Of a DNA stretch of 64,000 nucleotides, positions 52,806-60,355 are shown piece by piece. How positions within the stretch are numbered: position 1 is the first letter of the stretch; the number at the start of each line of letters is the position of its first letter. The notes under the pieces were generated by a model that saw nothing but the letters and a program-made list of their open reading frames with translations, was not told where the DNA came from and did no database searches. Where the stretch lies: positions 62,001 through 126,000 of the forward strand of contig PXRL01000026.1 of NCBI GenBank assembly GCA_003020965.1, written 5' to 3'. This stretch comes from Halobacteriales archaeon QS_4_69_225. GTDB taxonomy: Archaea > Halobacteriota > Halobacteria > Halobacteriales > Haloarculaceae. Position numbers and translations under genes: made by a program.

Positions 52806-53576
52806 ATGGCCCTCCAGATAGCGGACGCGATCGGCGACGGCGCTCGCCGGGCGTTCACGTACAGCGGCGGCGTACTGATGCTTTTGATGTTCGGCTACCA
52901 GTTGCTGTTCATGGGGGCGACGAACACGATCACCGCATCGCTCCTCCCAGCGGCACGGGGCGCCGCAGACCCGGGGTTCACACTCCCGATCTCGGTGGGC
53001 GCGGCCGCCGCCCTCGCCGTCGCCGGGCTGGTGGCTGGGACCGTGCTGTTCATCATCTCGGCACGGGCGCTGACCCGGCCGCAGTCGGAGCTCGGCGCGC
53101 TGCCATCCGAACTGTTCATTCGCCGCGTCGGTCGGGCGACGCTATCGGCCCTCGGCGCCAACCTCGTCGTCGTGGTCGCGGTCGTCGTCGGATTCATCTT
53201 CCTCGTGGTGCCAGGGGTGTTCCTGACGCTCAGCTTCCTGTTCGTCGTCTTCGCAATCGGCATCGAAGACGAACGCGCCGTCGACGCCATGCGGCGGAGC
53301 TGGGCGCTGGCCAGCGGCGACCGCTGGCCGCTGCTGGCGGTGCTGGTCGTCGTCACCGTCGTCACGAGCGTCGGCAGCGGCCTCGGGGGCGCGCTGTCGA
53401 CCGTCAGCCCCGTCGTCGGCCAGATCGCGAGCATAGCCCTGTCGTCGGTCCTCACCGTCGTCGGCTACGGCATCCTCGCGGACGCGTACCTCCAGCTCTG
53501 CGAGGAGAAACCGTCGGACCTCGACCCCGACCGCACCGCCGGCGCGGGCGCCCGCGAGGGCGACCCGCTGGCCTGA
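52806..53576 (+). CDS. six-helix integral membrane protein (DUF7847-like)
   Basis: A 256-residue membrane protein with about six hydrophobic helices, ending in a short acidic tail. The loop RAVDAMRRSWALASGDRWPL is typical of a large haloarchaeal family related to glycerophosphodiester phosphodiesterase membrane domains, in which an R-S-W-x-L segment follows the fourth helix. No catalytic motif is seen. It lies 54 bases after trmY and immediately before the tRNA-Pro gene. Function unknown; a membrane-remodelling or sensing role is only a guess. Confidence 0.75.
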   Translation: MALQIADAIGDGARRAFTYSGGVLMLLMFGYQLLFMGATNTITASLLPAARGAADPGFTLPISVGAAAALAVAGLVAGTVLFIISARALTRPQSELGALPSELFIRRVGRATLSALGANLVVVVAVVVGFIFLVVPGVFLTLSFLFVVFAIGIEDERAVDAMRRSWALASGDRWPLLAVLVVVTVVTSVGSGLGGALSTVSPVVGQIASIALSSVLTVVGYGILADAYLQLCEEKPSDLDPDRTAGAGAREGDPLA

Positions 53577-53627
53577 CCCTCGCCGTATCACAACGCTTAA
53601 CCTCGCCGCCGGCGTCGCTTCGACTGC

Positions 53628-53700
53628 GGGCCGGTGGGGTAGCTTGGTATCCTTCGGCCTTCGGGTGGCCGTAACCACGATTCAAATTCGTGCCGGCCCA
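53628..53700 (+). tRNA. tRNA-Pro (anticodon CGG)
   Basis: A complete 73-base cloverleaf: acceptor GGGCCGG pairs with CCGGCCC, D arm GGGT/ATCC, anticodon stem CGGCC/GGCCG enclosing the loop TTCGGGT, so the anticodon is CGG and reads CCG proline codons; T arm CACGA/TCGTG with loop TTCAAAT; discriminator A at 53700. No intron and no encoded CCA. Its 3' 22 bases recur twice downstream. Confidence 0.93.
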
Positions 53701-53818
53701 TATCACCCCACTTCGCAACGACGAGCGATAGCGAGGAGTCCGTAGTGGGTGTGAAATGGTCACCGGACGGATTTGAATGGGGCCGGACGCGCGCAGCGAA
53801 GCGAGCACGTCCGGACGT

Positions 53819-53841
53819 GATTCACAATTCGTGCCGGCCCA
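53819..53841 (+). repeat. partial tRNA-Pro 3' end, copy 1 (possible att site)
   Basis: Matches tRNA positions 53679-53700 with one extra C in the T loop (GATTCACAATTCG against GATTCAAATTCG), then GTGCCGGCCCA. It is preceded at 53790-53806 by a GCGCAGCGAAGCGAGCA block. Confidence 0.65.
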
Positions 53842-53970
53842 TTTCACCCTCTCGACATGTGAACCCGAGCCACAGCGAAGGGTCCCGGAGTAGGGAACGC
53901 GAATCCGTGCCGAATTTGAATGAGGCGAGACGCAGCCCGCGCAGCGAAGCGAGCAGGACCGTCTCGACGT

Positions 53971-53992
53971 GATTCAAATTCGTGCCGGCCCA
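53971..53992 (+). repeat. partial tRNA-Pro 3' end, copy 2 (possible att site)
   Basis: A perfect 22-base match to the tRNA 3' end at 53679-53700, followed by TACCACCCT where the tRNA is followed by TATCACCCC. The same GCGCAGCGAAGCGAGCA block lies just upstream, so it is a second unit of a direct repeat with a period of about 150 bases. Confidence 0.7.
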
Positions 53993-54147
53993 TACCACCC
54001 TCCCGACATTTCGTCCGACAGCGACGGCGCTCGGCCTGCCGACCGACGGTCGCGTGGACGGGGCAAGCGGTGAACACTCGAACGAATCGGCGTCGAATCC
54101 TACCCTAACGAGCGCGGCTTTTTACCCTCGCGGCCGGTAGCGAGGCC

Positions 54148-54492
54148 GTGCGCGTTCACGGCCACGAGGTTCGGGGAGTCGACGTCGACGGCGAAACTCG
54201 CTGTGCCCACTACGGGACCGAGCGGGATGTCGTCGCGCTACGGTTCGGCTGCTGTGAGAGCTACTACCCCTGCTTTCGGTGTCACGCGGCGGTCGCCGAC
54301 CACGAGGCCGAGCGGTGGCCCGCCGGCCGCCGCGGCGAGCCGGCGGCGCTGTGCGGCGTCTGCGGCGCCGAGCTGACCGTCGACTGCTACGCGGCCGTCG
54401 ACGCCTGCCCCGACTGCAGGACGGCGTTCAACCCCGGCTGTGCCAGCCACTACGACCGCTACTTCGAGCCGGCGGCCGCGGCCGAGGACTGA
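54148..54492 (+). CDS. CHY-type zinc finger protein
   Basis: A 114-residue protein starting with GTG. The CHY signature CAHY lies at residues 19-22, followed by CCESYYPCFRCH, CGVCGAEL, CYAAVDACPDC and a closing CASHYDRYF, which supplies the Cys and His ligands for about three zinc ions. The length matches stand-alone prokaryotic CHY proteins. CHY fingers in eukaryotes occur in ubiquitin ligases; the prokaryotic role is not established. It lies 45 bases before the NUDIX gene on the same strand. Confidence 0.85.
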   Translation: MRVHGHEVRGVDVDGETRCAHYGTERDVVALRFGCCESYYPCFRCHAAVADHEAERWPAGRRGEPAALCGVCGAELTVDCYAAVDACPDCRTAFNPGCASHYDRYFEPAAAAED

Positions 54493-54537
54493 CCGCCGGA
54501 GCGGGGAGGTTTTGCCCGTCCGTACGGACCGTCGAGC

Positions 54538-55095
54538 ATGGACGGAGACGAGACGGACCTCGCCTGGGAGACGCTGGACAGCGAGACGGAGTACACCTGC
54601 CCCGGCTTCGACGTCGTGCGCGACGACGTCGCATTCCCGGACGGCGACCGTGGGTCGTTCCACTACGTCACCGACGCGCCGTCGGTCGTCGTGCTGCCGT
54701 TCACGGCCGACGGCGACGTCGTCGTCATCGAGGAGTGGCGCCAGCCCGTCGGCCGGGTCAACTACGGGCTGCCGGCCGGCGGCCTCGAGGACGACGACGC
54801 GGACCTGTCGGCGACCGCCCGCCGGGAGCTGCGCGAGGAAACCGGCTACGAGGCCGACGCCGTCGAGCAGCTCGCAACCTACGAGCCGAGCAACGGGCTC
54901 TTCGACTCGGTGTACCACTACGTCGTCGCCCACGGCTGCGAGCGGACGGCCGATCAGGAGCTGGACGACAACGAGTCCATCCGCGTCGGGACGACGACGT
55001 TCACCGACCTGCAGGAGCGGGCCGCGGCCGGCGACCTCCGGGACGGCCGGTCGGCGCTCGGCGTCCTCCAGTACGCGGCACAAATTGGCGAGTGA
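54538..55095 (+). CDS. NUDIX hydrolase (ADP-ribose pyrophosphatase-like)
   Basis: A 185-residue NUDIX protein. The box reads GGLEDDDADLSATARRELRE then ETGY near residues 80-105; the metal-binding REL-REE core is intact, while the first Glu of the consensus is replaced by Asp within a run of acids. The preceding strand VVVIEEWRQPVGRVNYGLPA is typical of ADP-ribose and nucleoside-diphosphate-sugar pyrophosphatases. Expected to hydrolyse ADP-ribose or a related nucleotide in the cytoplasm. It converges on the cyclophilin gene. Confidence 0.85.
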   Translation: MDGDETDLAWETLDSETEYTCPGFDVVRDDVAFPDGDRGSFHYVTDAPSVVVLPFTADGDVVVIEEWRQPVGRVNYGLPAGGLEDDDADLSATARRELREETGYEADAVEQLATYEPSNGLFDSVYHYVVAHGCERTADQELDDNESIRVGTTTFTDLQERAAAGDLRDGRSALGVLQYAAQIGE

Positions 55096-59014: not shown

Positions 59015-59120
59015 CCTCACCCTACTTGTTCACGGCTTCTTCTCGCGGGCCGCAGGCCCGCTCGAATGGTTCGCGGAACTTTGTTCCGCGCTATCGCCGT
59101 TCGCTTCGTTGAGGGTGGGG
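59015..59120 (-). ncRNA. candidate omega RNA scaffold and right end of IS element 2
   Basis: Read on the minus strand, an outer stem pairs 59112-59120 with 59015-59023 (one wobble), enclosing two perfect hairpins: GCGGAAC-type arms at 59072-59079 and 59083-59090, and GCGGGCC/GGCCCGC arms at 59045-59051 and 59055-59061. The position, overlapping the 3' end of tnpB and ending at the element border, is that of the guide RNA of TnpB systems; the guide would be the adjoining ahbAB 3' sequence. Confidence 0.55.
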
Positions 59121-60355
59121 CTTTCGCGTGGACTCCCGCTCTGGCCGGAATCTCCGGCAGGAGGTTCAAATTCTCCGTTCGCGTTCAACATCCCGCGATT
59201 CAAGCGCACGCCTACGGGTGCGCCTCCGCCGTCCCCAGTTTGGTTACGACGGAGATACCGCAGACCGATGTTTTTGGCCGCGTTGTAGTCGGCGTGGTTC
59301 CCGTACCCACATTTCAAGCACTCGAAGTTCTCGCCCTCGCGGTTGTCCGGATGCGTGAACCCGCATGTCGAACACCGCCGCGACGTGTTCTCCGGGTCTA
59401 CCTGCTTGACCGATATACCGCGCGGTTCGGCCTTGTACTCGACGTACTCGTACAATCGGTCGAAGGCCCATTCGTGTCCCCACGACGCGCCAGAAAGCCT
59501 GTCGCGGATGCCAGTCAATTTCTCGAAGGCGATGACTGTACAGCCGTTCTCGGCGGCCTCCTCGATAATGCCGTTCGCAATTCGGTGGAGCATCATCGTG
59601 AAGCGCCCCGTCTCTTTGCGACCGACAGACTGGATGTTCTCGTGGGCGTGACGGCTTCCGCGCTGCTGGAGCGATCCACGCCGTTTCTCGTACTCCCGTC
59701 GCCAGTGGTCGAACTCGCTACCGCTCCAGAACACACCCGTTGACGTGACCGCGAGTTGGTTTACGCCGAGGTCAACGCCGAGGACTGTGCTGTGCCCGGT
59801 CGTTGCCTGTTCCAACGTATCGGACTCCACCTCCGCCTTTGTGCGGAGATGAAGGAACCACTCGCCGTCTCTGTGGTGCAGTTCCGCGCTCGTCACCTCG
59901 TAGTCGTCGTTGTCGAGGTACCGACTGTGGGGTGTGTCGCGGGCGGGGTCGGGGAGGACGTACTCGACGTCGATGCGTCCATCGACGGTCGCCAGCGACA
60001 CGTACTCGTCGTGGAAGGTGGCGCACCGCCTGTCGTAGACGGCGGTCGGATTCGAGAAGTGCGGTTTGCCTGCGTATCTGCCCTGTTTCCAGCGGGCGAC
60101 GGCACTCTGCACGGCGTCAGCGGCCTTGTTGCGAGCGTTTTGGACGAGGTTCGCGTGCAATCCTGTCTGGTCGCGCACCTCGTCGTAGGTTTCCTCTTGT
60201 AACTGTGCCTTGCTGGTCGTTTTATATTCGCCCTGCCACGCGTGGTTGACGACGTGGTTAGCGGCCCACAGAAACTCGTCTACTGTCTCATACAGAAGTG
60301 CAGCGCCGTCGCTGTCCACGTCGAGTTTGACCGGGACAGTTCGCCGCACCTCCAT
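59030..60355 (-). CDS. tnpB: TnpB, RNA-guided DNA endonuclease of IS200/IS605 elements
   Basis: A 441-residue TnpB. RuvC motifs are all present: Asp in [15 protein letters not shown] (about residue 197), Glu in [13 protein letters not shown] (about residue 285) and Asp in [14 protein letters not shown] (about residue 368). The zinc ribbon is [11 protein letters not shown] ... CLKCGYGN. The last 60 residues are low-complexity and read into the structured right end, so they may overlap the guide RNA and be dispensable. Codon use is chromosomal. An expected protein-guide complex would cut the vacated site and so favour retention of the element. Confidence 0.9.

Follow-up and report, generated by a model that had tools for sequence, protein, structure and literature searches.

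Modular repeat units with arms matching the host tRNA stand in tandem behind tRNA genes of haloarchaea

Introduction

Why does the 3′ end of a tRNA gene recur, in tandem, behind the intact gene? The question is raised by tRNA-Pro(CGG) in a 64,000-nucleotide stretch of Halobacteriales archaeon QS_4_69_225 (assembly GCA_003020965.1, contig PXRL01000026.1, positions 62,001 to 126,000), which as a whole is called the window below. An initial annotation had noticed that the last 22 bases of this tRNA occur twice more downstream, and it read the copies as scars of larger elements once integrated at the tRNA. The T-loop is a known integrase sublocation within tRNA genes (PMC8371274). In the open-access literature on haloarchaeal tRNA-downstream repeats, partial tRNAs and hairpins, to which our search was confined, no description of such units was found. 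The nearest statements concern partial tRNAs that adjoin full ones in Hfx. gibbonsii (PMC7921747) and small mobile repeats in Haloquadratum (PMC3119063).

Results

Both copies of the tRNA-Pro 3′ end were confirmed at the positions first reported (Table 1). They are stacked in tandem, bring their own conserved unit with them, and are att-like in that they begin in the T-loop and finish at the tRNA 3′ end. The same block, GCGCAGCGAAGCGAGCA, stands ahead of both (53791-53807 and 53939-53955), the CACCCT flank after them is indeed a repeat, in a 33-nt register (91%), and the start-to-start spacing, given initially as about 150 bases, is 141 and 151 bp. The initial annotation did not mention that each block is preceded by an inverted T-loop arm, which makes each unit a long hairpin. 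Both units lie 3′ of the gene and consist of this arm, a core and the direct 3′-end copy; they fold in the order left arm, internal loop, inner stem, loop and right arm, the last being the tRNA copy. Folding gave z-scores of -3.4 (RNA) and -1.2 (DNA) for the hairpin of unit 1 and of -4.8 (RNA) and -3.2 (DNA) for that of unit 2. Copy 1 reads GATTCA-C-AATTCGTGCCGGCCCA, the extra C being its sole insertion, and the rare A53/T61 pair of tRNA-Pro(CGG) is mirrored in the left arm of unit 2 (CGA-ATTTGAA-T). The core of unit 1 is common to units behind other tRNAs, and trailer hairpins are present after many unit-bearing tRNAs. The block AGCGAAGCGAGC, to which the initial annotation had pointed, was discarded as a marker: it showed no enrichment over a reversed control in the window's genome (28 vs 45) and is therefore not diagnostic alone.

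Table 1. Parts of the tRNA-Pro(CGG) locus, in window coordinates
Feature	Position	Strand	Sequence	Remarks
tRNA-Pro(CGG)	53628..53700	+		ARAGORN; orthologue matched in same genus and family
Source block for the copies (last 22 nt of the tRNA)	53679-53700		GATTCAAATTCGTGCCGGCCCA	nt 52/53-73
Trailer hairpin adjoining the tRNA	53703..53754	+	CACCCCACTTCG...GTAGTGGGTGTG	folds, modest, DNA z -1.6
Unit 1 left arm, inverted T-loop-region copy	53768..53778	+	CGGATTTGAAT	
Unit 1 core, short type	53779..53818	+	GACGCGCGCAGCGAAGCGAGCACGTC	covariance model R1 match at C26:115768-115832
Direct copy 1 of the tRNA-Pro 3′ end	53819..53841	+		one C inserted in T-loop
Trailer from copy 1 to unit 2	53842..53910	+		
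Unit 2 left arm	53911..53921	+	CGAATTTGAAT	exact inverted copy of host nt 53-63
Unit 2 core, long type	53922..53970	+	GAGACGCAGCCCGCGCAGCGAAGCGAGCAGGACCGTCTC	covariance model R1 match, E 3e-16; inner-stem covariation
Direct copy 2 of the tRNA-Pro 3′ end	53971..53992	+		perfect, 22/22
Flank after copy 2, recurring after copy 1	53993..54009	+	TACCACCCTCCCGACAT	33-nt family, 91%

The observation at tRNA-Pro holds, yet it is a single instance of a far wider pattern. A copy of the tRNA's own 3′ end (at least 17 of 21 positions, within 600 bp downstream) was found for 19 of the 37 tRNAs in the window's genome, whereas the same search upstream never exceeded 14/21 for genuine tRNAs; the downstream copies are therefore not due to chance. 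With a covariance model built from 26 units behind many different tRNAs, 36 matches were obtained in this genome, 33 of them downstream of a tRNA and on its strand (chance 0.5%). One of the other three stands behind an intron-containing tRNA-Trp, as judged by eye against another tRNA-Trp, one behind a 3′-half tRNA-Leu, and the third comes from the opposite strand of a palindromic unit. The first unit mostly starts 31-50 bp past the tRNA end. The unit thus occurs genome-wide, behind about half of the tRNA genes, the other half being without one, and the 140 units collected for comparison stand behind 31 isoacceptor types. Scattering away from tRNAs had been named as the sign of an ordinary interspersed repeat; in the window's genome essentially every match is at a tRNA, and a few relatives have the inner core alone, not the unit, inside another dispersed repeat. 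This repeat, which lies off tRNAs, combines the inner core GTCGCAGCCCGCGCAGCGAAGCGAGCAGGA(A/C)CGTCT with GCTGGGGAGG and GGGACTCAAAGGGGCAG (genomes G217 and G038, loci L195-L207 and L212; genome G042, L045 and L046).

The covariance model matched 32 of the 33 Halobacteriales genomes searched and none of 164 genomes from elsewhere in the phylum; G152 is the sole sampled haloarchaeal genome without a match. A pattern scan of named genomes found the structured form in haloarchaea only, at tRNA genes, for example in Haloferax, Haloarcula, Natronococcus, Halosimplex, Halorientalis, Salinarchaeum and Halorhabdus, and its bacterial matches had no remainder of the unit. BLAST with the two tRNA-Pro units found no unit in phage records, the matches being mycobacteriophage noise (E 0.9), and plasmid matches spanning only the 37-bp core. 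Likewise, all 13 matches of the pattern scan in viral contigs had no rest of the unit and were read as chance. Rfam (cmscan of 53000-54600, E up to 1) returned only a chance match to mir-598.

To describe the boundaries, copies were aligned with their own tRNAs in the 140 units, which had been selected on nt 53-72 only, so that both outer edges were free. Identity is about 0.25 through nt 51, 0.84 at nt 52 and 0.91-0.99 over nt 53-73; past nt 73 it is about 0.65, dropping to 0.4 in the trailer. In 84 of the 140, copy and tRNA agree at 20/20 positions. The median period is 125 bp and units range from 100 to 180 bp; a gene would not fit into any of them.

The two arms differ from host tRNA to host tRNA and match their own, while the core is common to all tRNAs. 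At nt 61, 62 and 63 of the left arm, the observed level of match to the host was reached in 0 of 2000 shuffles for each position; the match at nt 64 and 65 was much weaker. A tRNA-Gly with the rare T-loop TTCAATT has the left arm GGAATTGAACC. The left arm usually ends near nt 63, and at locus L425 it is a perfect 22-nt inverted copy of the whole block. The core consensus RGWCGC...CGTCT is common to 31 tRNA types, pairs 1 and 2 of the inner stem covary, with extensive changes on both sides and 236 Watson-Crick pairs among 250 (base composition alone predicts 86), and a constant T·T mismatch is present in 103 of 125 units. G·T pairs, 2 of 250 in the inner stem, are not significantly below the 22 of 1211 in tRNA acceptor stems of the same loci (p 0.41); with this control DNA-level pairing is not proven, and missing wobble was dropped as an argument for it. 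Relative to the tRNA the core is forward in 106 scorable units and inverted in one; a second inverted core was seen by eye (L211). Both belong to genome G025, and their arms stay in place. The same genome has four tandem units behind a tRNA-Tyr, with two core types alternating (L213).

Two variants of the copy were recognized. In class II units (41 of 239 tails) the copy spans nt 61-73 and the arms come from the acceptor strand. One-base changes in the T-loop of copies comprise 17 insertions, in about 9% of copies, against one deletion; ten of the 17 read GTTCA-C-AAT and one, unit 1 of the window, reads ATTCA-C-AAT. The insertion, usually a C at the same place, recurs at many loci, behind other tRNAs and in other species; examples are L032, L254, L272, L289, L329 and L343, besides 53819-53841 of the window.

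Units of this kind might arise with no dedicated enzyme. At tRNA genes, which stall replication, template switching and slippage on T-loop and acceptor sequences would copy the 3′ end in direct and inverted orientation; quasi-palindrome correction would maintain the match between the arms, and in the polyploid cell the copies would be held to the sequence of the gene by gene conversion. Inverted arms of up to the whole block, as the perfect 22 nt at L425, agree with this, as do a host match that decays outward from the T-loop, the use of nt 61-73 and acceptor-strand arms in class II, and an integrase number that does not track unit number (see below). However, accidental duplication would not yield a conserved core in 31 tRNA types throughout a whole order, and the boundaries are identical at every tRNA. 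We regard an origin of this sort as rather unlikely.

Filled and empty sites were compared at orthologous tRNAs of the sister species G038 and G217, a comparison that is unpolarised as to gain or loss. At a tRNA-Ser one species has an additional 123 bp, and at a tRNA-Gly the opposite species has an additional 177 bp; in both cases the copy is followed by the trailer adjoining the tRNA in the empty species. At one tRNA-Arg each allele of nt 65 goes with its own trailer, C65 with CTATC and T65 with TTCC, and the order of these modules of 3′ end plus trailer is reversed between the two species. Within that genus the trailer modules of tRNA-Ser are arranged as Q+P, P+Q, P, Q and longer arrays including a Q+P+Q-like one, and tRNA-Gly has at least five modules in varied orders. 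For tRNA-Ser and tRNA-Gly, module boundaries fall at the 3′-end copies. Differences by whole units and the varied order of trailer modules indicate that these are modular cassettes which turn over, and not scars left by large elements.

This bears on the initial reading, in which the copies are decayed att scars of integrated plasmids or viruses. The copies do resemble att sites, at an integrase sublocation that is known from tRNA genes (PMC8371274), and partial tRNAs stand beside full ones in Haloferax gibbonsii (PMC7921747). As at an att scar, the 3′ end is duplicated and the gene is intact. However, the units of relatives are also 100-180 bp, with neither an integrase gene nor an element remnant between the duplicated ends, they differ as whole units between sister species, and they stand behind 31 isoacceptor types. 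The phage records hold no unit, the plasmid matches are core-sized, and the viral-contig matches lack the structure of the unit. Decayed copies should also not be identical at 20/20 positions in 84 of 140 units while the adjoining trailer differs. Finally, two larger tRNA-bounded islands have another boundary, since their tRNA duplications are much longer and start from the anticodon arm. Taken together, att scars appear improbable. One of these islands, of 8.5 kb, lies in the window's genome (C20:30305-39083, L138) between tRNA-Leu(TAG) and a 3′-half copy that carries its own unit; by reading, its metabolic genes include a regulator, a sugar ABC transporter and CoA-transferase-like and HMG-CoA-lyase-like genes, and no integrase was seen among them. 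The other, of 8.2 kb (G038:C1:113137-121619, L139), lies between a tRNA-Gly and a 3′-half tRNA-Gly with units behind the latter, and contains a short PF00589 integrase match at 114012-114389.

Alternatively, the units might be selected RNA elements, with trailer and T-loop hairpins that are co-transcribed with the tRNA, help to terminate transcription, to process the 3′ end or to protect the pre-tRNA, and are kept because they function. The strict same-strand orientation, the start of the first unit about 31-50 bp past the tRNA in most cases, and the stable, strongly covarying hairpins fit such a role. On the other hand, orthologous tRNAs of sister species hold from zero to several units and roughly one tRNA in two is without any, which makes the unit dispensable at any one tRNA, and about 9% of the copies contain a one-base T-loop insertion. 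A selected RNA function is, in our judgement, unlikely.

Candidate enzymes were surveyed in 33 genomes. Tyrosine recombinases (PF00589) are present in all 33, and unit number does not rise with PF00589 gene number (Spearman -0.24, p 0.17); the window's genome has about 38 unit matches and one PF00589 match. The Y1 transposase (PF01797) gave no match in the window's genome, an assembly with a completeness of about 89%, or in 13 further genomes that bear units, and the genome with the most Y1 matches, G152 (10, many of them broken), has no unit. Cas1 (PF01867) was found in 11 of the 33 genomes, and 22 of the 32 unit-bearing ones have no match. Because they are missing from so many unit-bearing genomes, Y1 transposase and Cas1 were ruled out as general drivers. 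The window itself contains, at 59030-60355 on the minus strand, a 441-aa open reading frame that reads like TnpB of the IS605/IS1341 type.

Reverse transcription of the tRNA was also considered and set aside: the copy begins at nt 52/53 rather than behind a T-loop modification site, and it has no CCA.

Discussion

Recombination at the T-loop fits these data best because the edges are sharp, the arms are host-specific on both sides, modules are shuffled around an intact tRNA and the hairpin points one way. We therefore favour, with a probability of roughly 0.4, the reading of the units as non-autonomous cassettes that a putative host recombinase recombines at the T-loop. Each cassette would comprise tRNA nt 52/53-73, the trailer, the inverted T-loop arm and the conserved core. 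By recombination at the T-loop sequence, cassettes would be gained, lost and re-ordered; the 5′ part of the tRNA would stay while its 3′ end is swapped for an identical one, and the former 3′ end with its trailer would be displaced downstream, where it appears as a copy. The folded hairpin, with its host-specific arms, covarying inner stem and one-way orientation, may be the feature that the recombinase recognizes. The candidate enzyme would be host-encoded and act in trans, and most likely belong to the tyrosine recombinase family. This reading is weakened in that unit number does not rise with PF00589 gene number, and in that modules could also be exchanged in polyploid haloarchaea by gene conversion or by recombination between short repeats.

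Irrespective of the driver, the tRNA 3′ flanks across an archaeal order hold one fast-evolving, modular repeat family, the host tRNA serving as template for its ends. The units may explain the partial tRNAs that stand directly beside full ones in haloarchaeal annotations. If recombinase-driven, they would represent a previously unknown DNA-mobility system that is easily studied in Haloferax volcanii and that bears on tRNA 3′ ends as recombination hot spots and on the evolution of pre-tRNA trailers.

Several known systems share features with the units. Archaeal tyrosine-integrase att sites (PMC8371274) likewise target a tRNA gene, duplicate its 3′ end and restore the tRNA. In contrast to these, no element or integrase lies between the copies here, and a single core serves 31 tRNA types in whole arrays of 100-180 bp units. 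The SMR, PATE and MITE repeats of Haloquadratum walsbyi, about 110 bp long, are short, transposase-free, palindromic and mobile; SMR-A targets IS605 palindromes without target duplication, and others derive from IS605 (PMC3119063). The present units differ in their position at tRNA 3′ ends and in their 21-22 nt duplication, and the window's genome, as stated above, has no match to the Y1 transposase to which IS200/IS605-derived mini-elements (PATE, REP-like) are tied. A MITE has terminal inverted repeats related to an autonomous transposon, plus a target duplication; the units have inverted arms, made of host tRNA sequence, and a duplication of 21-22 nt, and no transposon that could be their parent was found.

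Casposon or Cas1 integration produces a target duplication at a tRNA 3′ end and a repeat-spacer-like layout, and both features are found in the units. Their 'spacers', however, are homologous to one another, and Cas1 is missing from most of the unit-bearing genomes. The nearest analogue known to us, likened by description, is the set of 178-bp repeats at E. coli tyrT that give rtT RNA (Rfam RtT): tandem, downstream of a tRNA and each with a copy of the tRNA 3′ end, as here, they occupy one enterobacterial locus. We know of no inverted host-specific arm or order-wide core in them, and the cmscan of 53000-54600 returned no match to this Rfam family.

In integrons, a cassette array stands behind a fixed site, cassette order is shuffled, and the attC site is a one-strand hairpin with an occasional extrahelical base (PMC2727003). 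The units show the same array, shuffling, polarity and extrahelical base; they differ in that the cassettes hold no gene, that the site is the tRNA T-loop, and that the unit junction reads GTTCAAAT or ATTCAAAT, with C at position 4, instead of the attC core site GTTRRRY. Conceivably, though we would call it doubtful, tRNA genes are the fixed platform of an integron-like system in which a hairpin-reading recombinase keeps inserting, removing and shuffling gene-less cassettes and the tRNA 3′ end is rebuilt each time. Cassettes would then stand behind roughly 20-50% of the tRNA genes in the genomes examined, with hairpins made from the tRNA T-loop and the core. Given an enzyme, such a system would, if real, be categorically new.
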